Shown: one piece after another, positions 83 to 32,945 of the stretch | Numbering within the stretch: position 1 is the first letter of the stretch | How the letters are laid out: each line of letters starts with the position of its first letter | NCBI GenBank assembly: GCA_003604995.1 | Contig: QZJD01000050.1 | Location: 1 to 32,945, forward strand | DNA: 32,945 bases | Source of the DNA: Desulfobulbus sp. | Lineage (GTDB): Bacteria > Desulfobacterota > Desulfobulbia > Desulfobulbales > Desulfobulbaceae | Reading direction: 5' to 3' | The notes under the pieces: model-generated | Database searches by the model: none | The model's input: the letters and a program-made list of their open reading frames with translations, nothing else | Told to the model about the DNA's origin: nothing | Program-made: the position numbers and the translations under genes

Positions 83-355
83 GGTGAACCCCGCCATTTT
101 TCAGGTCGTTCGTTTGAGCGGCCGCCTCCTTCTCTCGCTGAACAGGCAACTGCTGGGACATAAGCTTGTCGCCGCCGAGAATTTTTCTTTTGATTCCCAT
201 CAGCTCCATGTTAAGATGATCATGTCGGCTGTAACGTATTGAAATCACAGTGGCGGATGCTCAGGATTGTGACTTTTTTCGAGCGTATCAACCAGCTCCC
301 TTGTTGTCGCCAGGCCCGGACCCGCTCGGTGTATGGCATGAGCCCAGGGTGATCA
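83..355. other. Intergenic stretch without a recognised gene
   Basis: This stretch lies between the tRNA terminator and the phosphatidyltransferase gene. I see no convincing coding frame, RNA motif or strong promoter pair. The only useful signal is AGGGTG at about 347-352, just before the ATG at 356. Confidence 0.5.
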
Positions 356-895
356 ATGACTCTCCTCCGCATGATACCCAACCTGCTCTCCACTTTCCGC
401 TTGCTGCTGGCGCTGGTTTTTCCCTTCTGTCCGCAGTCTGAGTGGATATGGCTGGTTCTGGCCGGTGGTGCCAGTGATGTTCTGGATGGCTGGATCGCAC
501 GGCGCTGGCACCTGGAAAGCTGGCAGGGCAGCCTGCTGGACGCGGTAGCTGACAAGCTCTTTGTTCTGTCCGTTCTGGTCACCTTTGTTCTGTCAGGCAG
601 GTTTTCGCCCTGGTGGGTGCCTGGTCTGATTGTCCGCGACCTGACCGTAGCCTTGATAGCCCTTTATGCATTTTGCCGAAGGGAATGGGAATCCTTTCGC
701 CAAATGAAGGCCAGCATCTCGGGTAAGCTGGCCACGGCCGGCCAGTTCCTCTTTTTTGCTACGGTCGTTCTGGCGCCCGCCTTCATCGACACGATCTTTG
801 CCGTCGCGGTCCTCTTCAGTATCCTGGCCGCCCTGGATTACGGTCGCCGTTTTATCCTGGCTCTGCGGCAACGCGCTGTGGAAAAGTCGATCTAA
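356..895 (+). CDS. CDP-alcohol phosphatidyltransferase family protein
   Basis: A 179-residue integral membrane enzyme expected to transfer a phosphoalcohol from a CDP-linked lipid to an acceptor alcohol in phospholipid synthesis. The family signature is complete: D41, D44, G45, A48, R49, G58, D62 and D66 in the order D-x2-D-G-x2-A-R-x8-G-x3-D-x3-D. These Asp residues bind the metal and CDP. Several hydrophobic membrane segments follow. The start at 356 has an AGGGTG ribosome site. An alternative ATG at 371 would give the family-like MIPNLLS N-terminus. It could be a PgsA-like phosphatidylglycerophosphate synthase, but the acceptor cannot be read from sequence. It stands alone, with a foreign-looking regulatory region downstream. 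Confidence 0.88.
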   Translation: MTLLRMIPNLLSTFRLLLALVFPFCPQSEWIWLVLAGGASDVLDGWIARRWHLESWQGSLLDAVADKLFVLSVLVTFVLSGRFSPWWVPGLIVRDLTVALIALYAFCRREWESFRQMKASISGKLATAGQFLFFATVVLAPAFIDTIFAVAVLFSILAALDYGRRFILALRQRAVEKSI

Positions 896-943
896 GGTCT
901 GAAATAAGATCAGTCCGTCGGGAAGAAAGGCGTCCTCCGCGCG

Positions 944-973
944 TTGACTTTCCTTTTGTCGATTCGCTATACT
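944..973 (+). promoter_or_regulatory. Sigma-70-type promoter
   Basis: TTGACT (944-949) and TATACT (968-973) are separated by 18 nt, a good match to a housekeeping promoter. A transcript from here would begin near 980 and run through the fold-back repeat and the riboswitch into the beta-helix gene. Confidence 0.6.
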
Positions 974-984
974 TATTCATAGAG

Positions 985-1155
985 CCTCTTTCAAAAAGAG
1001 CGTCGTTGTGAGATCGAGAGAAAAATACGCCGGGCAAGGATGAGATGGGAAATCGCCCGGAAGCCTAGCTGCGCTACGCTGAGGACGGTTTCCTATTGAA
1101 GGCGCAGCCCGGGGTATTTTTAGCCGATCGGAATAGATGTTCATTTTGAAAGGGG
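985..1155. repeat. Fold-back (inverted-repeat) element, about 171 bp
   Basis: The ends are complementary: CCTCTTTCAAAA (985-996) pairs with TTTTGAAAGGGG (1144-1155) through 12 positions with one G-U. An inner pair follows: 1021-1035 and 1107-1121 match in 14 of 15 positions (AAAAATACGCCGGGC against GCCCGGGGTATTTTT). A small TAGC-TGC-GCTA hairpin sits in the core. This nested structure looks like a non-autonomous repeat or a highly structured leader. There is no coding capacity. The right terminal repeat also contains TTGAAA (1146-1151), which with CAATAT (1169-1174, 17-nt spacing) could form a weak promoter just before the riboswitch. Confidence 0.65.
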
Positions 1156-1174
1156 TTTCATGTACAGTCAATAT

Positions 1175-1278
1175 CCTGGGTGGGGAAAAGCGAACCGGTC
1201 GGAAGGTCGGCAGGCAAAGCCGCCGATCGAGCCATGGACAGCCTGGTCGCCGAACAGAAGAGAGACTGACCGGTTTTT
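1175..1278 (+). promoter_or_regulatory. GEMM-I cyclic-dinucleotide riboswitch with terminator-like expression platform
   Basis: The region carries the GEMM-I hallmarks in order. GCGAACC (1190-1196) leads into a stem (1195-1200 with 1205-1210) capped by a GNRA tetraloop GGAA (1201-1204). The conserved GGCAAAGCC follows (1213-1221), then a variable arm, then AGCCTGGTCGCCGA (1240-1253), close to the family's AGCCGGGTTGCCGA. Downstream GACCGGTT (1268-1275), running into a short T tract, is perfectly complementary to AACCGGTC (1193-1200) inside the aptamer. Ligand binding could therefore control an alternative, terminator-like pairing. By hand alignment, A1189 occupies the position of Vc2 G20. A there is associated with cGAMP-responsive members. 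It probably controls the beta-helix gene and perhaps the next secreted-protein gene. Confidence 0.72.
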
Positions 1279-1335
1279 GCTGATTTTGTCGGAATGAAGC
1301 CCGCGGCTGCGACAGGCAAGGGGAGGGGATTGCTT

Positions 1336-2568
1336 ATGAAAAGGGAGGTCTGGTTGACCGGAGGGCTGCTCTTCTTCATGATGGGCTTGTCTTCCATCGC
1401 GGGCGGCACCGTCCTGGTCGGCAGCGTCGGCGCCTTGCTGGATGCCGTTGAGAGCGCCAACAACGGCGGGGACAAGACGATCCTCATTGCCGATGGCACC
1501 TATGACCTGAGCGGCGTGGCCCTGTTCATCACCGTTGACGGGGTGACGGTGCGCAGCGCCAGCGGCAACCGCAGCGGCGTTGTTCTGGACAGTCATTATG
1601 TCGAGGCCGGCACCACCGGGATATTCCGCATCGTCTCCTCCTCCGTCACCATCGCCGATCTGACCCTGAAGCGCCCCTATTACCATGCCATCCATATCAG
1701 CCCGGCCGCGGGCAGGAGCACGGAAAATATCCTGATCCAAAACGTCCACATCATCGACCCGGGCGAGCAGGCGATCAAGATCAATCCGGACGACCCCTAT
1801 GCCGCCACCTATACCGTCAACAACAGCACGATCAAAAACTGCCTGATCGAACTGACCGATACGGGCCGGACCCAGCTGACCAGCGACTATCCCTGCTACA
1901 CCGGCGGGATCGACGGTCACTGGGCCGGCAACTGGACGGTGCAGGATAACGTCATCCGGGGCTTCTGGTGCAGCGACGCACTCTCCGAGCACGGCATCCA
2001 TTTCTGGAACAATTCCAGTAATATTGTGGTAGAGCGGAACCGGATCATCGACTGCGACCGGGGCATCGGTTTCGGCCTCGGGGAGCAGGGGAATTCCGGC
2101 GGCATTATCCGCAACAACATGATCTATCACGGGCCGGACCACGGTTACAGCGATGTCGGGATCAGCCTGGAATCAACGCCCGATGCCCAGGTATACAACA
2201 ACACCGTTTTTCACGTGCATGCCTACCCGGCCATCGAATATCGGTTTGCCGCCACCACCGGGGCCTTGATCGCCAACAATCTGACCAACCGGGACATCTG
2301 GCAGCGGGACGGGGCCTCGGGAACGGAGAGCCGTAACCTGACCGCGGCCCAGGCCTCCTGGTTCGTGAACGCCGTGGCCGGCGATCTGCATCTGGCCTCC
2401 GCGGTCAGCGGCGTGATTGACCAGGGAATGGCTCTTACCGGCCTCACCGACGATTTTGATAAGGAGAAGCGACCCCAGGGCCGTGGAATTGAACTCGGCG
2501 CCGATGAAGTACTGTCCGGCGCATTTCCGGGAACCCTTTCCTGGCTCATGCTGTTGCTTGGGAAATAA
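1336..2568 (+). CDS. Exported right-handed parallel beta-helix protein (NosD/pectate-lyase-like)
   Basis: A 410-residue secreted protein. I chose the ATG at 1336 over 1294 because GAGG (1323-1326) lies 9 nt upstream and the resulting N-terminus is a clean Sec signal (charged MKR, hydrophobic core to about residue 20, then small residues). The body has many short strands with turn motifs such as NNSTIKN, NNMIYHG and YNNTVFHV, typical of PbH1 repeats. The ending RPQGRGIELGADE matches the C-terminal cap (RP..G..IGA.E) seen in polysaccharide-active or surface beta-helix proteins. No catalytic assignment is possible. It sits directly behind the GEMM-I riboswitch, which suggests control by a cyclic dinucleotide. 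The last residues (LSWLMLLLGK) are unusually hydrophobic. Confidence 0.82.
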   Translation: MKREVWLTGGLLFFMMGLSSIAGGTVLVGSVGALLDAVESANNGGDKTILIADGTYDLSGVALFITVDGVTVRSASGNRSGVVLDSHYVEAGTTGIFRIVSSSVTIADLTLKRPYYHAIHISPAAGRSTENILIQNVHIIDPGEQAIKINPDDPYAATYTVNNSTIKNCLIELTDTGRTQLTSDYPCYTGGIDGHWAGNWTVQDNVIRGFWCSDALSEHGIHFWNNSSNIVVERNRIIDCDRGIGFGLGEQGNSGGIIRNNMIYHGPDHGYSDVGISLESTPDAQVYNNTVFHVHAYPAIEYRFAATTGALIANNLTNRDIWQRDGASGTESRNLTAAQASWFVNAVAGDLHLASAVSGVIDQGMALTGLTDDFDKEKRPQGRGIELGADEVLSGAFPGTLSWLMLLLGK

Positions 2569-2626
2569 AAGATTTTCCGCGGAGGAAATAAAAGCGCACG
2601 TCCTGACCATGGACAAGGAGGGATCT

Positions 2627-3991
2627 ATGAACTGGTTTGCCGTCGTCGCCGCCGGAATGGCCTGGGGATTGATCACCGCTGCACCATGCCTGGCCGAGAG
2701 CAAGTCATCCGGCCCCGCGCCGGCCGATATCGCCCAGCCCGTGATCCGGGCGACCACCCTGATTCAGCCGGCCGACCTTGTGTATGTGGGTGCGTTCAGG
2801 CTGCCCGATTCCCCGGCCACCCCGGAGAATGTCGGCTGGGAGTGGAGCAACTGGGCGGGGGCGGCGACCTACTACCCCGGGGGCGACCCCGGCGGGTCCG
2901 GTGACGGCTATCCAGGTTCTCTGTTCGGCGTGGGCCACGATCAGACCCAGTACGTATCGGAGATTTCCATCCCGATGCCTCGCAAATCCGCGGCCAAGAA
3001 CGTCAATGAGTTGAACACCGCCGGTGTTCTGCAGGACTTCAGGGACATCAAGGGCGGGTTGTACGGCTACCTGGAGATGGCCCGGGTCGGTCTGGCCTAC
3101 CTGCCGGCCCAGGGCGCGCAGACGAGCGGCAAGCTCTATTTTTCCTGGGCCCAGCATCTGGACGAGATGAACACCGGACCGACCCACGGCTGGTGTGAAC
3201 TCAACCTCGCAAATCCCCAGCCGCAGGGAACCTGGCGGATCGGCGGTTACCGCAACTATGTGACCGCCGACTATCTGTTTGAAATTCCTTCAGCCTGGGC
3301 CGCCGCCTACACCCCAGGCTACCGGCTGGTCACCGGCCGCTACCGCGATGGCGGCCAGGCCGCCCAAGGGCCCGCCCTTTTTACCTTCGGTCCCTGGAAC
3401 CAGGGAAATCCGCCTGCCGCCGGCACGACCCTGACTACGAAGCCCCTGCTCCTCTACAACAGTATCCTGGATGCCGAACAGTATATCCTGTACAACTATA
3501 CCCATGCTGACGAATGGAACGGCGGGGCCTGGCTGACGACGGACAGCAAGTCAGCGGTCATCTTCGTCGGCAACAAGGGGCTTGGCTACTACTGGTACGG
3601 GTGCAGCAATGGATTGGAGTGCGTCAACCCCGAGGATCCGGGCTGTTTTTGCGAAGATCGCGGCTGGTGGGCTGATACGTTCATCGCCCAGATCCTTTTT
3701 TATGATCCCGCCGACCTGGCCAGGGTCGCTCAGGGGAGCCTGGCGCCCAACAGACCCCAGCCTTACGCAACCCTGAATATCGATCCCTACCTTTATCATA
3801 TCACCTCAACCCGGCAGAAATATCATGTGAGCGCGGTGGCCTATGATCGGAGCCGCGGCCTGCTCTTTATTTTCGAGCCGTTTGCCGACGGCGACAAGCC
3901 CATCGTCCATGTCTGGTCTCTTTTGGGAACATCGGCCGGCGCACCAGCCGTCAGTGGGCCGCTACATCTCCTTCTGTCTGGCGAGGAATAA
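2627..3991 (+). CDS. Secreted protein of unknown function
   Basis: A 454-residue protein that I do not recognise. The start is the ATG at 2627, preceded by AAGGAGGGATCT, with a signal peptide MNWFAVVAAGMAWGLITAAP and likely cleavage near CLA-ES. The frame is open further upstream but overlaps the previous gene and lacks a ribosome site. The mature protein is rich in Trp, Tyr and Gly and opens with PADLVYVGAFRLP. It holds a Cys cluster (C326, C332, C340, C342) that could form disulfides or bind a metal. The style (many aromatic-turn-strand segments) suggests a beta-propeller or other all-beta exoprotein, but that is only an impression. It follows the beta-helix gene by 58 nt on the same strand, so the two are probably co-transcribed and share riboswitch control. 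Confidence 0.7.
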   Translation: MNWFAVVAAGMAWGLITAAPCLAESKSSGPAPADIAQPVIRATTLIQPADLVYVGAFRLPDSPATPENVGWEWSNWAGAATYYPGGDPGGSGDGYPGSLFGVGHDQTQYVSEISIPMPRKSAAKNVNELNTAGVLQDFRDIKGGLYGYLEMARVGLAYLPAQGAQTSGKLYFSWAQHLDEMNTGPTHGWCELNLANPQPQGTWRIGGYRNYVTADYLFEIPSAWAAAYTPGYRLVTGRYRDGGQAAQGPALFTFGPWNQGNPPAAGTTLTTKPLLLYNSILDAEQYILYNYTHADEWNGGAWLTTDSKSAVIFVGNKGLGYYWYGCSNGLECVNPEDPGCFCEDRGWWADTFIAQILFYDPADLARVAQGSLAPNRPQPYATLNIDPYLYHITSTRQKYHVSAVAYDRSRGLLFIFEPFADGDKPIVHVWSLLGTSAGAPAVSGPLHLLLSGEE

Positions 3992-4062: not shown

Positions 4063-4629
4063 TCAGATGATCTGGTTGTTCCTCTCCGTTTCCTCCGGCC
4101 CTTTCCGGTAGCGGCTCAACACGCCGTAAAGCATGTCCGGCAGGTCGTTTTTCTGACGGGAAGAGCGTTGGATCTGTTTCAGGCATTTGTCCAGGGTCAG
4201 GGGTTCGTACAGGAAGATATGCCGGAGGATCAGGGAAATGAGCCGGGTGATGGTGGTTAGGTTGGATATCCGCGATTGCAGCTCATGATTGCGGTCAAAG
4301 GCCGTGGAAGCAAAGACCTCCACCGGGTTGCCGTCCACTTCGCTGACCGAGAGGTACCATTTATTCTGTTCCCGGTCCACGGCGCGGTACCGTTTGCCGT
4401 CAACCACATCGGGCAGTTCGATGGTTTCTCTGGGTTCAGAGCCGCCCGGCTGGGGCAGGATCGGTTCGTCATGATAGAGGCGCCAGGCGTTTTTGATCAC
4501 CTCCGGATGGCTTTTGACGGTGGTCATGACCGTCTTGCAGGATGTGCAGACGGAAATATTGTCCAGATTATGGGTTTTTTTTGTCGCGCCGCATAACTGG
4601 CAGCGGGAATCTTCTCTTTCTTCCGTCAC
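4063..4629 (-). CDS. Zinc-ribbon + TSCPD-domain protein (class II ribonucleotide reductase tail-like)
   Basis: A 188-residue protein with a GTG start at 4629, supported by GGAGG seven nt upstream (minus strand). Residues 10-31 form a zinc ribbon (C10, C13, C28, C31). Residues about 75-175 (GKRYRAVDREQNKWYLSVSE, then PVEVFAST, then TRLISLILRH, then CLKQIQRS) resemble the TSCPD domain found at the C-terminus of adenosylcobalamin-dependent (class II) ribonucleotide reductases. No reductase catalytic barrel is present, so this is a stand-alone tail, reminiscent of the split NrdJb subunit or of TSCPD regulators. A function in nucleotide reduction is inferred. It is convergent with the secreted-protein gene (71-nt gap, no obvious terminator) and divergent from the corrinoid adenosyltransferase gene that makes the cofactor of class II enzymes. 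Confidence 0.7.
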   Translation of the reverse strand: MTEEREDSRCQLCGATKKTHNLDNISVCTSCKTVMTTVKSHPEVIKNAWRLYHDEPILPQPGGSEPRETIELPDVVDGKRYRAVDREQNKWYLSVSEVDGNPVEVFASTAFDRNHELQSRISNLTTITRLISLILRHIFLYEPLTLDKCLKQIQRSSRQKNDLPDMLYGVLSRYRKGPEETERNNQII

Positions 4630-4753
4630 GTTTGCGCCTCCGATTTCCTTTCCTCGTTAAGCTCGTTGCTGCCGCGCCAGGGAAAGGCAACGCGTTTCGT
4701 TCCATGCAGGTGGTTGTAATTCTTGTCCTGACAGGGTACAAGCTGTTGCGAGG

Positions 4754-4783
4754 AACATACCCCGAGCACGGGGGGAAAGTCAA
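4754..4783 (-). promoter_or_regulatory. Sigma-70-type promoter for the TSCPD gene, with a palindrome in the spacer
   Basis: On the minus strand, TTGACT (4783-4778) and TATGTT (4759-4754) are 18 nt apart. The spacer contains the inverted repeat CCCCG-AGCA-CGGGG (4760-4773). Its placement between the -35 and -10 elements fits a repressor operator or a MerR-type activator site. The leader to the GTG start would be about 115 nt. Confidence 0.55.
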
Positions 4784-4844
4784 TGTGATCGGTTCCGGTT
4801 AGCCGGGTTGGCGCAAGCTGATCCCAACAGGGGCGGGAAGGTAT

Positions 4845-5008
4845 GATGGCGTTGCAAAAAGTCCGATCTACTGCGTTGTGGCGGGTTCGGCCAATGCTCG
4901 GCGTACCTTTTGTACGCCAGCGCGTGGCCGACACCACCACGCCTTGTATTTCGAACTTTTGTGCTTAGCCATCGGCTGCGTATTTTTATGTTTCTGCGGG
5001 TTCATCAA
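4845..5008 (+). repeat. Dispersed structured repeat, copy A
   Basis: This segment matches, in opposite orientation, 21912-22101, from GATGGCGT to TCATCAA. It is strongly conserved over the core (from GTCCGATCTACTGCGTTGTG to the GTATTTTTATGTTT end). A long imperfect hairpin forms around GGCGTAC...GTACGCC, with flanking CGGCC/GGCCG and GTGG/CCAC arms. Copy A lacks about 24 nt that copy B has after the hairpin. It ends three bases before the start codon of the corrinoid adenosyltransferase. Short reading frames inside it are products of the repeat, not genes. Confidence 0.9.
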
Positions 5009-5011
5009 GGT

Positions 5012-5551
5012 ATGGACAACAAAAAAATCAGAAAAAAGAGCCTGCTGCTCCTGTTCACCGGCAACGGCAAGGGGAAGACCACCTCGGCCCTCGGCCTTGC
5101 GTTCCGGGCCATGGGACACGGTTTCCCGGTCTGCATGATCCAGTTCATCAAGGGGAGCTGGCGGTACGGGGAGTTGGAGACGGCCAAGCTCTTTCCGACT
5201 CTTTTTGAGCTCCGGGTCATGGGCCGCGGTTTTACCTGGCAATCAGAGGATCTGGACAAGGATGTCGCCGCCGCCCGGGAGGCTTGGGCATTTGCCGAAA
5301 AGACCATCCGGGAGGGGCACTGCCGTCTCCTTATCCTGGACGAGTTGACCTATCTCCTGTCCTACGGGATGCTCGACGAGCAGGCTGTACTCACCGTACT
5401 GGCCTCAAGGCCCGAAAACATGCATATCGTGGTTACCGGCCGGGCGGCGACGCCGGGCCTGATTGCCGCCGCGGATCTGGTGACTGAAATGCTCGATATC
5501 AAGCATCCCTATGCCAAAGGGGTCATGGCCCAGCAGGGAATCGAGTTCTGA
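5012..5551 (+). CDS. cobO: Corrinoid (cob(I)alamin) adenosyltransferase, CobA/BtuR family
   Basis: A 179-residue enzyme that adenosylates cob(I)alamin or cobinamide with ATP to form adenosylcobalamin. The CobA-type P-loop TGNGKGKTTS is at residues 16-25, followed by the family's MIQFIKG, an LILDELTYL strand (Walker B region) and the VVTGR motif near the C-terminus. The length is normal for CobA/BtuR. The ATG at 5012 is the right start because upstream codons belong to the dispersed repeat. The ribosome site AAGG straddles the repeat border (5007-5010). No cobalamin riboswitch is visible upstream. The divergent TSCPD protein suggests B12-dependent ribonucleotide reductase as one user of the product. 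Confidence 0.93.
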   Translation: MDNKKIRKKSLLLLFTGNGKGKTTSALGLAFRAMGHGFPVCMIQFIKGSWRYGELETAKLFPTLFELRVMGRGFTWQSEDLDKDVAAAREAWAFAEKTIREGHCRLLILDELTYLLSYGMLDEQAVLTVLASRPENMHIVVTGRAATPGLIAAADLVTEMLDIKHPYAKGVMAQQGIEF

Positions 5552-5653
5552 TTCGAAAGGTGCCGGTACCCCTGGATTGATATGCTTTAATCTTGCAACT
5601 TTCCAGCCGCTTGGTATTATTTCAAGTTTCGCCGGCCAACGTCGTAACGAAAT

Positions 5654-5760: not shown

Positions 5761-8577
5761 ATGGAGTACCGTGATACCTTAAACCTGCCGCAGACAAAAT
5801 TCAAGATGAAGGCCAATCTGGCCCAGAAGGAGCCGGAATTCCTCAAGCGCTGGGATGCGGAAGGTCTTTATCAGCGGTTGCAGGAATTTACCGCCGACCG
5901 ACCCCTCTTTGTCCTTCACGACGGTCCTCCCTACGCCAACGGCCACATTCATCTGGGCACCGCTTTTAACAAGATTCTCAAGGACATTATTCTTAAGTCC
6001 AGGCGGCTGGCCGGTTTCAATGCCCCGTATATCCCCGGCTGGGACTGTCACGGCCTGCCCATCGAGCATAACGTGGACAAGGAACTGGGCGCGAAAAAGG
6101 AGCAGATCTCCATTCTGGCCAAGCGGGGCGCCTGCCGCAAGTACGCGGAAAAGTGGGTCAAAACCCAGAAGGCGGAGTTCCGGCGCCTGGGCGTGCTCGG
6201 TGACTGGGATACGCCGTACCTGACCATGAACTATGCCTATGAAGCGGCCATTGCCAGGGAGTTCAACCGCTTCCTCCTTTCCGGATCCGTGGTCCATTCA
6301 AAAAAACCGGTCTACTGGTGCGCCACCTGCGGCACCGCCTTGGCCGAGGCCGAGGTGGAATATCATGACCATACCTCACCCTCCATCTATGTCAAATTTC
6401 CGGTGGCCGGGGATCTGGGCGATGTCATTCCGGAGCTTGCCGGGCGGTCGGTGAGCGTCCTGATCTGGACGACCACCCCCTGGACCCTGCCCGCCAACCT
6501 GGCCATTGCCTTTCATCCGGATTTCGTTTACGCGGCGGTGGAGACCGGCGGTGAGGTCTGGATCATGGCCCGCGACCTGGTCGAGAAGTGCTTCCGGGAA
6601 TTCGGCATCAGCGACTACCGCCAGCTTGCCAACTTTTCCGCCTCGGTGCTCGAGGGGCGCAAGTGCCGCCATCCCTTCCTGGAGCGGGATTCGCTCCTGG
6701 TGCTGGCCGATTACGTCACCGCCGACAGCGGCACCGGCTGCGTACATACCGCGCCCGGCCACGGCACCGACGACTACCTCACCGGCCTGCGCTACGGCCT
6801 GGAGATCCTGTCGCCGGTGGACGACCAGGGCCGCTACACTCGGGAGGCTGGCCCTTATGCCGGCCAGCAGATCCCGGCGGTGAACAAGGTGATCAACGAG
6901 GACATGCGCGCCGCCGGTTCCCTTGTGCATCAGGCTGCCCTGCAGCACAGCTATCCCCACTGCTGGCGATGCAAAAAGCCGGTGATGTACCGGGCCACCG
7001 AGCAGTGGTTCATTTCCATGCAGGAAAACGGTCTGCGGGACAAGGCCCTGGCCGAGATCAGCCATGTCAGCTGGACTCCGGCCTGGGGTATGCAGCGGAT
7101 CTACAGCATGGTGGAAAACCGGCCGGACTGGTGTCTGTCCCGTCAGCGTTCCTGGGGTGTGCCGCTGACCGTGCTCACCTGCGAGGAGTGCGGGCAGATC
7201 CTCCGCGATTCCGCCGTCTGCACCCGCATCGAAGAGATGTTTGCCAAGGAGGGCGCCGACGCCTGGTTCCGGCATGAGGCCGAGGCGTTCGCCGGGCCGG
7301 CTGCAACCTGCGCCGGCTGCGGATCCCACCGCTTCCGCAAGGAGACGGATATCCTCGATGTCTGGTTCGATTCCGGGGTCAGCTATGCCGCGGTCTGCGA
7401 GGAGCGGCCCGAGCTTTCCTCACCGGCCGACCTCTACCTGGAGGGCAGCGACCAGCACCGGGGCTGGTTCCAGAGTTCTCTGCTCTGCTCGGTGGGCACC
7501 AGGGGAACGGCCCCCTACAGCGGCGTCCTCACCCACGGCTATGTGGTGGACGGCCAGGGCAAGAAGATGTCCAAGAGCGTGGGCAACGTGGTCGCGCCCC
7601 AGGAGGTCATCGACAAATACGGCGCGGAGATCCTGCGGCTCTGGGTGGCCAGCGAAGACTACCGCGACGATGTCAAAGTGTCCGACGAGATCCTCCGCCA
7701 CGTCTCGGACGCCTACCGCAAGATGCGCAACACCGTGCGCTTCATGCTGAGCAACCTCTATGATTTCGAGCCGGGCAAGGATGCGGTCGGCGCGGTGCAC
7801 CTGACCGAACTGGACCGATGGGTCCTGGCCGAATACGCCCGGCTGGTCAGGAGGGTGACCGGCGCCTACCTGAAGTACGAATTCCACACCGTTTATCATA
7901 GCCTGCACAACTTTTGCGTGACCACCATGTCCAGCCTGTACCTGGACATCTGCAAGGACCGCCTCTATGCCTCGGCGCCGGCGTCGTCCGGGCGGAGGGC
8001 CGCCCAGACAGTGATCCATCGGATCCTGGACGGCCTGCTCAGGCTGATAACCCCGATCTTGAGCTTCACCGCGGCCGAGGCCTGGGAGCATCTTTACGCC
8101 GACGGTGTGCAGCTGCCCGCGGACAGGTCGATTTTCTTCGTTGATTTTCCTCAGGTTGAAGACCTGGAGCCTGATCCGGAGTTCATGGCCGTCTGGGACC
8201 GGCTGCTGGCGATTCGCGGTGAGATCACCCGGGTGCTGGAGGCCGCCCGCCGCGACAAGGTCATCGGACTGGCCCTGGATGCCGAAGTTCAGGTGCAGGT
8301 CGAGGGCGAGGCTGCCGATTTCCTGGCGGATCGCTGGGCCCTGCTGCAGGAAATCTGCATCGTCTCAAGCTTGATCAGGGTGGATAAGTTCGACGATGAT
8401 CTGGCAAAAACCGCGGTTGACGCGGAAGAGGTTGTCGGTCTGCGGGTCGCGGTCCGGCCTGCGCCCGGCGCAAAATGTGAGCGATGCTGGACCATATCCA
8501 CCTCGGTGGGCCGGGCGACCGATCATCCGTCCCTTTGCCGCCGCTGCGCCGAAGTGGTCCGCACTCTCGCCGCTTGA
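5761..8577 (+). CDS. ileS: Isoleucine--tRNA ligase
   Basis: A 938-residue cytoplasmic class I synthetase that charges tRNA-Ile, with an editing domain that removes misactivated valine. The start is the ATG at 5761 (MEYRDTLNLPQTKF, the family's usual N-terminus), with GGAG at 5750-5753. The in-frame ATG at 5737 has no such support. The HIGH motif reads HIHLG at 62-66 after PPYANG, and KMSKS is at 602-606. The C-terminal zinc finger has C906, C909, C926 and C929. The editing domain (about 190-400) includes the conserved LIWTTTPWTLPAN and DSGTGCVHTAPGHG stretches. The length is normal and no key residue is missing. It is followed by lspA 8 nt downstream, a pairing common in bacteria. Confidence 0.98.
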   Translation: MEYRDTLNLPQTKFKMKANLAQKEPEFLKRWDAEGLYQRLQEFTADRPLFVLHDGPPYANGHIHLGTAFNKILKDIILKSRRLAGFNAPYIPGWDCHGLPIEHNVDKELGAKKEQISILAKRGACRKYAEKWVKTQKAEFRRLGVLGDWDTPYLTMNYAYEAAIAREFNRFLLSGSVVHSKKPVYWCATCGTALAEAEVEYHDHTSPSIYVKFPVAGDLGDVIPELAGRSVSVLIWTTTPWTLPANLAIAFHPDFVYAAVETGGEVWIMARDLVEKCFREFGISDYRQLANFSASVLEGRKCRHPFLERDSLLVLADYVTADSGTGCVHTAPGHGTDDYLTGLRYGLEILSPVDDQGRYTREAGPYAGQQIPAVNKVINEDMRAAGSLVHQAALQHSYPHCWRCKKPVMYRATEQWFISMQENGLRDKALAEISHVSWTPAWGMQRIYSMVENRPDWCLSRQRSWGVPLTVLTCEECGQILRDSAVCTRIEEMFAKEGADAWFRHEAEAFAGPAATCAGCGSHRFRKETDILDVWFDSGVSYAAVCEERPELSSPADLYLEGSDQHRGWFQSSLLCSVGTRGTAPYSGVLTHGYVVDGQGKKMSKSVGNVVAPQEVIDKYGAEILRLWVASEDYRDDVKVSDEILRHVSDAYRKMRNTVRFMLSNLYDFEPGKDAVGAVHLTELDRWVLAEYARLVRRVTGAYLKYEFHTVYHSLHNFCVTTMSSLYLDICKDRLYASAPASSGRRAAQTVIHRILDGLLRLITPILSFTAAEAWEHLYADGVQLPADRSIFFVDFPQVEDLEPDPEFMAVWDRLLAIRGEITRVLEAARRDKVIGLALDAEVQVQVEGEAADFLADRWALLQEICIVSSLIRVDKFDDDLAKTAVDAEEVVGLRVAVRPAPGAKCERCWTISTSVGRATDHPSLCRRCAEVVRTLAA

Positions 8578-21911: not shown

Positions 21912-22101
21912 TTGATGACCCCGCAAAAACATAAAAATACGCCGCCGATGGCTCAGCACACAAGTTCGATATACAGGTAAGCGAACGGAGTGAGACTTCG
22001 AGGCGTGGTGGTGTCGGCCATGCGCAGGCGTACCCAGGGTACGCCGAGCATTGGCCGAACCCGCCACAACGCAGTAGATCGGACTTTTTTACGACGCCAT
22101 C
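21912..22101 (-). repeat. Dispersed structured repeat, copy B
   Basis: The inverted partner of 4845-5008. Read on the minus strand it has the same core and ends, with a longer version that includes about 24 nt (around 21975-22002) missing in copy A. The central palindrome is GGCGTACC-CT-GGGTACGCC, and the arms keep pairing where the sequence differs from copy A. It occupies the gap before pyrF. The remainder of 21746-22214 shows no gene that I can support. Confidence 0.9.
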
Positions 22102-22214
22102 AATGTAGGTTCTGCAAATAGGGCTGAGCTGATGCCTGCATACCTTGTAACATGTCGAAATTACAGTGTTGGGTGTCAGTGTTTTGAGTTTTTGCTCTCG
22201 TACTTGGATCTAAT

Positions 22215-32468: not shown

Positions 32469-32590
32469 GGTAAATGAGAAAGCAGTGAATTCGTAATGAG
32501 GAAAAATGAATATTGCAAATGATTGCAACTGACGGGCATCATAACAAAAAAACTCATACGGAAAAACGTAAGGGACTTTGGTATAAGAAT

Positions 32591-32706
32591 TCGGCGGCGA
32601 CCTACTCTCCCACCCAGTCACCCGTGCAGTACCATCGGCGCTGGAGAGATTGACTTCCGTGCTCGGCAATGAGAGCGGGTGGGGCCTCTCCGCAATGGTG
32701 ACGGAG
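32591..32706 (-). pseudogene. Diverged, probably non-functional 5S rRNA copy
   Basis: The 3' two thirds match the neighbouring 5S copy closely (GGGAGAGTAGGTCGCCGCCGA end). The conserved loop region reads CATTGCCGAGCACGG with an inserted base, where normal 5S, including the copy at 32860, has CATTCCGAACACGG. GAAGTTAAG has become GAAGTCAAT. The 5' end does not pair with the 3' strand of helix I (expected near TTCGGCGG). The 5' limit is approximate. It lies after the rRNA terminator. Confidence 0.75.
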
Positions 32707-32848: not shown

Positions 32849-32859
32849 GGTATAAGAAT

Positions 32860-32945
32860 TCGGCGGCGACCTACTCTCCCACACAGTCACCCGTGCAGTA
32901 CCATCGGCGCTGGAGAGCTTAACTTCCGTGTTCGGAATGGGAACG
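32860..32945 (-). rRNA. rrf: 5S ribosomal RNA (partial, cut by the window end)
   Basis: The 3' part of a normal 5S rRNA. It keeps the conserved CGTTCCCATTCCGAACACGG, GAAGTTAAGC, GCGCCGATGGTACTGC and GTGGGAGAGTAGGTCGCCGCC stretches (minus strand). The 5' end lies outside the window. It is probably the last gene of an rRNA operon transcribed into the window. Confidence 0.95.

Follow-up and report, generated by a model that had tools for sequence, protein, structure and literature searches.

The closest described counterpart of the protein reported here is the tail, or cysteine-rich domain (CRD), of the class II, B12-dependent ribonucleotide reductase NrdJ. In the enzyme of Stackebrandtia, Loderer et al. 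report a CRD that drives both electron transfer, for which its six-cysteine array is needed, and the dATP/dGTP-dependent formation of tetramers and hexamers (PMC5704485). The first half of the CRD is IscU-like, and its dimerisation has been proposed to explain the higher oligomers; according to this 2022 analysis, no role had been reported for the IscU-like half (PMC9669993). The tail can also be a polypeptide of its own, as in Pseudomonas aeruginosa, where NrdJb is separate and is reported to be required for activity (PMC4520616). A second point of reference is the regulator NrdR, which carries its ATP-cone behind the DNA-binding part, forms zinc-ribbon dimers and binds DNA as ATP- or dATP-loaded tetramers (PMC12051234).

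The window (the whole stretch of DNA analysed, 32,945 nucleotides) encodes a small protein that joins an N-terminal zinc site to a domain of the NrdJ-tail kind. The features of the locus are as follows.

4063 to 4629, minus strand: coding sequence of the stand-alone TSCPD protein, 188 amino acids with a GTG start, placed by the open reading frame and its relatives
4108 to 4416, minus strand: TSCPD / IscU-like domain, residues 72–174, placed by PF12637, the domain model and identity to NrdJ
4537 to 4602, minus strand: N-terminal zinc site C10-x2-C13-x14-C28-x2-C31, with four invariant cysteines
4713 to 4741, minus strand: 29-nt leader element TTGTACYCT-N10-RAA-N2-ACAAC, just downstream of the promoter
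4754 to 4783, minus strand: sigma-70-like promoter, with −35 TTGACT (4783–4778) and −10 TATGTT (4759–4754)
4760 to 4773, no strand assigned: palindrome CCCCG-AGCA-CGGGG in the promoter spacer, the single site in the window within two mismatches
5012 to 5551, plus strand: cobA, corrinoid adenosyltransferase and divergent neighbour (TIGR00708, 196 bits with a cut-off of 167.75; PF02572, 213.7 bits)
5761 to 8577, plus strand: ileS, the steady neighbour in the f1-like lineage (TIGR00392, 942 bits with a cut-off of 621)

An earlier note on this DNA had described a separate zinc-ribbon/TSCPD gene divergent from cobA, and this description holds in each of its parts. The reading frame stands alone on the minus strand, and CobA scores above the cut-offs of both its profiles. 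In the profile search, PF12637 (TSCPD) matches residues 87–174 (4108–4371) with 31.6 to 32.5 bits, against a curated cut-off of 22.8, and every one of the 74 aligned members of the family matches it at E ≤ 0.1. The zinc-site cysteines C10, C13, C28 and C31 are likewise invariant in 74/74 members, the predicted model places a helix (residues 29–40) after the second cysteine pair, and the A2L zinc ribbon profile (PF08792) is matched at E ≤ 0.1 by 16 of the 74. Among solved structures, a PDB profile search returns only weak matches to the ribosomal zinc ribbon eL43/L37a, at E 0.31 and above. Outside the N-terminal site none of the cysteines is invariant in the 74 aligned members; a second C..C-C..C ribbon follows the first in none of them (0/74), and a lone CxxC near the C-terminal end is found in three. 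The alignment (A1) holds 50 invariant columns and omits 7 of the 81 family proteins, which are cut short or have a short N-terminus. The domain itself is predicted to consist of three strands followed by three helices (pLDDT 84.9, pTM 0.73).

The bacterial and archaeal species genomes scanned contain at least 80 relatives, at 80 distinct loci; among the matches listed, most are records of Desulfobulbaceae, Desulfobulbus, Desulfocapsa or Desulfocapsaceae and Desulfofustis, and some are other or vaguer. In literature on TSCPD and on Desulfobulbaceae or IscU-like ribonucleotide reductase, a search of open-access papers returned no description of the family, which is apparently undescribed.

The nearest relative of the stand-alone protein is found in the same genomes. 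The only large-subunit reductase match in the window's genome is an NrdJ encoded by a 752-aa reading frame on another contig, C43 (TIGR02504, 712 bits), and its C-terminus comprises a TSCPD domain and a six-cysteine array; the tail whose possible absence the earlier note had wanted checked is thus present, an intact tail being one of the two findings that the note named as counting against its proposal. A class III reductase was considered as a partner and set aside, since NrdD is found in only 7 of 35 genomes tried and has no match in the window's 74%-complete assembly. Of 28 NrdJ tails of the order, five are of type A, in which the domain contains cysteines, eight are of type B, fourteen of type C, and one is different again (L111); the type C tails come from families f1 (the window's own, including genus g255) and f4, both of one order, of sulfur-metabolising bacteria. 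The C-terminal cysteine array is retained in 28/28; the pattern used for extraction required most of the array, and no locus failed it.

A domain tree unites 72 stand-alone copies with the 14 type C tails in a single clade (86 tips, support 0.88), to which none of the remaining NrdJ tail types of the order belongs, so that the suggested homology to the tail of the B12-dependent reductase is borne out. The tree is a single FastTree run over about 100 columns, with 9 of the 81 stand-alone proteins left out; under its midpoint rooting, the stand-alone group alone has a support of 0.27 and type C one of 0.99. The domain alignment A3 used 50 of 71 references. Within the window's genome, the stand-alone and NrdJ TSCPD domains are 44% identical. 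Across ten genomes that have both, 29 of 100 ungapped columns hold one unvarying residue shared by the two proteins, and 22 hold a residue that is invariant within each protein but differs between them; these 22 columns, fixed differently, point to a strong constraint on the stand-alone protein that is separate from that on the NrdJ tail. The mean identity between f1 and f4 in the same ten genomes is 73% for the stand-alone domain and 84% for the NrdJ tail. It is close to certain that the stand-alone protein is a paralogue of the IscU-like (TSCPD) half of the NrdJ tail. Separately, we note that an NrdJ frame of genus g255 (L150 in G459, positions 226–3873) is interrupted by an intein-like insertion, with the reductase residues NPC on one side of it and GEQW on the other, and that NrdJ of G463, from the same genus, likewise has an over-long frame.

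The stand-alone protein is nearly confined to f1 and f4, two bacterial families with a particular type of NrdJ. In a phylum-wide draw, the family profile matches 10 of 395 genomes, all of them in f1 and f4, and gives no match at E ≤ 1e-5 in the other 385. In each of the ten, the profile also matches, less strongly, the tail region of a long NrdJ-like frame; on NrdJ tails it scores 64–75 bits. Among 257 genomes of the order, with presence called at a best E < 1e-30, the gene is found in 61/73 f1 and 87/93 f4 genomes (148/166 together) and in 1 of the 91 outside these families (G607, a 70%-complete assembly, with the gene on a contig of 4.5 kb). The 18 f1 and f4 genomes that lack it include the whole of genus g255 (0/5 with the protein); among the remaining 13, completeness is no higher than 84% in eleven and above 90% in two (G419 and G568). 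Three of the five g255 genomes have a TSCPD-bearing NrdJ of the same tail type and a fourth has an NrdJ core fragment. The stand-alone protein is dispensable in at least this genus.

The reverse pattern, gene present and no NrdJ tail match, occurs in 19 f1 and f4 genomes. A search for the NrdJ core in 18 of them (G421 was left out) finds a core or fragment with no tail in 4 and no core match in 14. Within this group of 14, completeness reaches 90% or more in four, and part of a class III NrdD is present in two (G420 and G523). Most of the 14 yield neither of the two reductase classes looked for, which makes assembly gaps the likely explanation; nevertheless, genomes with the stand-alone gene and no class II reductase may exist. 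Four f4 genomes (G515, G526, G527 and G547) have extra family-profile matches, giving 3 to 5 matches, and G515 and G527 apparently hold second stand-alone copies. Carriage by phages or plasmids was considered and rejected: tblastn against a phage and a plasmid collection found nothing, and no match in viral contigs was confirmed.

The neighbourhood of the gene follows lineage. We refer to loci as f1-like or f4-like by identity order and synteny, labels that presumably coincide with families f1 and f4, and count a neighbour if it lies anywhere in the locus, with loci cut by contig ends included; in the first neighbour survey four loci (L003, L013, L050 and L058) had no anchor. By tblastn, cobA is found in 12/29 f1-like and 0/52 f4-like loci, and ileS in 27/29 and 0/52. 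The gene for leucyl/phenylalanyl-tRNA-protein transferase, aat, has the opposite distribution (49/52 f4-like and 0/29 f1-like loci), and the three f4-like loci without it all start at the stand-alone gene itself. With start codons picked by rule, the distance from the end of aat to the stand-alone gene lies between −32 and +18 nt in 45 of 47 loci measured and between −32 and +31 nt in 46, and is 170 nt in one. A RelA/SpoT-family gene is present in 45/52 f4-like loci. The window's genome has aat on contig C43, about 10 kb from nrdJ. The proximity to cobA, to which the earlier note had drawn attention, is therefore not a trait of the family, and carries little weight beside the steady neighbours ileS and aat.

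Three further elements of the window are recorded here. A dispersed inverted repeat of about 102 bp occurs at 4844–4944, between the promoter of the stand-alone gene and cobA, and at 22001–22102, the copies being 92% identical; it is REP- or MITE-like and forms a strong predicted hairpin (−44.7 kcal/mol). Upstream of ileS, 5584–5649 shares 77% identity over 66 bp with L003 and precedes an inverted repeat and a T-run, a possible ileS leader or attenuator. The window ends in two tandem 5S rRNA matches on the minus strand (32589–32706 and 32858–32945), 269 bp apart.

The promoter TTGACT-18-TATGTT has 9 of 12 matching positions. One such promoter was found where shuffles give 0.7, a scan result that has no weight of its own; the recurrence of TTGACTTT in 7 of 10 aligned leaders supports the promoter. 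The earlier note had also drawn attention to the palindrome between the −35 and −10 boxes. Its letters are indeed there, at 4760–4773, and arms of 5 bp are reached in only 2.4% of mononucleotide shuffles of the 19-nt spacer, but the palindrome is not conserved: the arms in seven relatives are 3–4 bp long, which 14–79% of shuffles reach, and none has 5 bp.

The 29-nt leader element is better conserved within its lineage. With up to two mismatches it is found in 12/29 f1-like loci (the window and L003, L004, L005, L006, L007, L008, L009, L010, L013, L014 and L016), 51–247 nt upstream of the start codon, against 0/1160 shuffles; it is absent from 16/29 f1-like loci and, allowing four mismatches, from all 51 f4-like regions. 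Seven genomes of the window's genus contain six matches with at most one mismatch, five upstream of the stand-alone gene and one elsewhere. Eleven loci have both the element and cobA (12 loci each), which indicates that the two mark the same sub-lineage, and the element may belong to the cobA gene arrangement. It lies on the side of the stand-alone gene even where cobA is at least 690 nt away (L010, L013, L014 and L016), and we read it as a candidate gene-specific operator or leader. Upstream of nrdJ, no exact-core copy is found (0/14). A conserved RNA hairpin in the leader was considered; a strong one folds in only two of seven segments (L005 and L008), weaker or absent in the rest, and the element is therefore treated as a sequence element only. 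A B12 riboswitch was also rejected, as an Rfam scan of the window at the gathering threshold gave only the two 5S rRNA matches.

Upstream of nrdJ, box pairs scored against what we take to be the NrdR-box consensus reach at least 21 of 32 in 11 of 14 regions, as compared with 18 of 700 shuffles; the same score is reached in 0/81 upstream regions of the stand-alone gene and 1/47 of aat. The two genes are therefore not visibly co-regulated. The 15–16-bp spacer of the NrdR-box pairs follows the published account of NrdR (PMC12051234). NrdR is present in 238/257 genomes of the order, on which ground replacement of NrdR by the stand-alone protein was rejected, and in 6/7 of the window's genus; it has no match in the window's own 74%-complete assembly, probably because of an assembly gap. 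The nrdJ of the window's genome has NrdR-box-like pairs although NrdR is unmatched in this assembly.

What might such a protein do? It is probably a helper or regulator and not a missing part of the reductase. The reading we prefer, to which we give a probability of about 40%, is that this tail paralogue acts in trans as a modulator of NrdJ assembly or activity, as suggested by the homology taken together with the oligomerisation data on the studied enzymes. The stand-alone IscU-like domain would pair with the IscU-like domain of NrdJ, and the pairing would alter the higher-order assembly of NrdJ. In the enzyme studied, it is in this assembled state that one subunit hands electrons to another, and the state responds to dATP and dGTP. 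The stand-alone protein would be unable to reduce the NrdJ active site itself. Against trans-acting modulation stand genus g255, which keeps an NrdJ of the same tail type without the protein, the lack of visible co-regulation with nrdJ, the 14 gene-positive genomes with no NrdJ core match, and the position of the gene, which does not adjoin nrdJ and has ileS or aat as its steady neighbours.

The earlier note had offered a detached reductase subunit or a disulfide-reducing tail, an arrangement for which the split NrdJa/NrdJb enzyme would be the model. Such splitting does happen, since NrdJb of P. aeruginosa is reported to be separate and needed for activity (PMC4520616), but both suggestions fail here on sequence grounds: the NrdJ of the window's genome is unsplit and ends in a TSCPD domain and six-cysteine tail of its own, all 28 NrdJ tails keep the array that the stand-alone protein lacks, and g255 retains NrdJ without the gene. 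With NrdJ complete and the cysteine array absent, the protein fits neither role, that of an essential subunit split off from NrdJ or that of a reducing tail, and we regard this explanation as highly improbable. Recruitment of the domain away from ribonucleotide reduction, into translation, the N-degron pathway (through Aat) or tRNA charging, is rather unlikely, although it accounts for the tight abutment with aat in the f4-like loci, the presence of ileS in nearly all f1-like loci and the absence of co-regulation with nrdJ. The aat link is lineage-specific, given that aat is missing from every f1-like locus and in the window's genome lies on the contig that carries nrdJ, and the nearest relative of the protein is still the NrdJ tail of the same genomes.

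The third suggestion of the earlier note was a regulator. A nucleic-acid-binding protein following the logic of NrdR, with at least its own gene under its control by way of the 29-nt element, is an unlikely reading made by analogy. A zinc site joined to a reductase-derived domain recalls the zinc ribbon and ATP-cone of NrdR (PMC12051234), 16 members match the A2L zinc ribbon, and the element exceeds shuffles and is nearly unique to the stand-alone gene within the genus genomes. However, its absence from the sister lineage and from 16/29 loci of the window's own means that it is hardly an ancestral target; its loci are nearly those of cobA, none of the 14 nrdJ upstream regions has its exact core, and NrdR itself is present in most genomes of the order. 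A broader proposal, to which we give little credence, would make the protein a second, independently built NrdR-type regulator, with a zinc ribbon and a copied TSCPD domain, that senses the purine dNTP level, acts on the assembly of NrdJ and, through the single 29-nt site, also acts on its own gene.

If the preferred reading, modulation of NrdJ in trans, is correct, the family would supply a B12-dependent reductase with a protein that regulates it; if NrdJ is not modulated, a reductase domain has been taken over for another job. In either case, a conserved natural copy of the IscU-like half without the electron-transfer cysteines is a reagent for finding out the function of that half and its ability, if any, to work in trans.

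Set beside known systems, the stand-alone protein is a new family on a known kind of domain. Another set of stand-alone TSCPD proteins, those of TIGR03905, is found in a few of the same genomes; the two that were translated are 106 and 111 aa long, with several cysteines in the domain and no N-terminal zinc ribbon. These true members score 109 and 112 bits to the TIGR03905 model (NCBIfam), to which the window protein has no match at E ≤ 1. Two loci, L146 (G445) and L147 (G452), hold short TIGR03905 proteins with four cysteines alongside the window's family. To IscU and SufU the domain may bear a weak resemblance in fold, as has been published for the NrdJ tail (PMC9669993): of the best 50 Foldseek rows for the domain model, 21 carry an IscU, SufU or NifU label, each with E > 0.1, and VIA gives IscU-type folds a Z of about 3, where unrelated rows reach 3–4.7. 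Several fold families are absent from the VIA rows, which says nothing against them. These matches of a predicted model are consistent with the published IscU-like fold and are no proof of it; the PDB profile search returns no IscU or SufU sequence match. Unlike IscU and SufU, the stand-alone domain has no invariant cysteine and therefore no conserved iron-sulfur site.

NrdR would be comparable in how it works: it too is a small protein that places a zinc ribbon before a regulatory domain of ribonucleotide reductase. The second domain is an ATP-cone in NrdR and TSCPD in the stand-alone protein, which at E ≤ 1 matches neither TIGR00244 (NrdR) nor the Pfam ATP-cone. The closest comparison remains the CRD of class II reductases, whether fused in NrdJ or separate as NrdJb, which shares the homologous TSCPD / IscU-like domain. 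Unlike the CRD, the stand-alone protein lacks the C-terminal six-cysteine zinc/redox array, and has an extra five-residue stretch (the HIFLYE region) and a zinc site of its own at the N-terminus; and unlike NrdJb, it coexists with a complete NrdJ.
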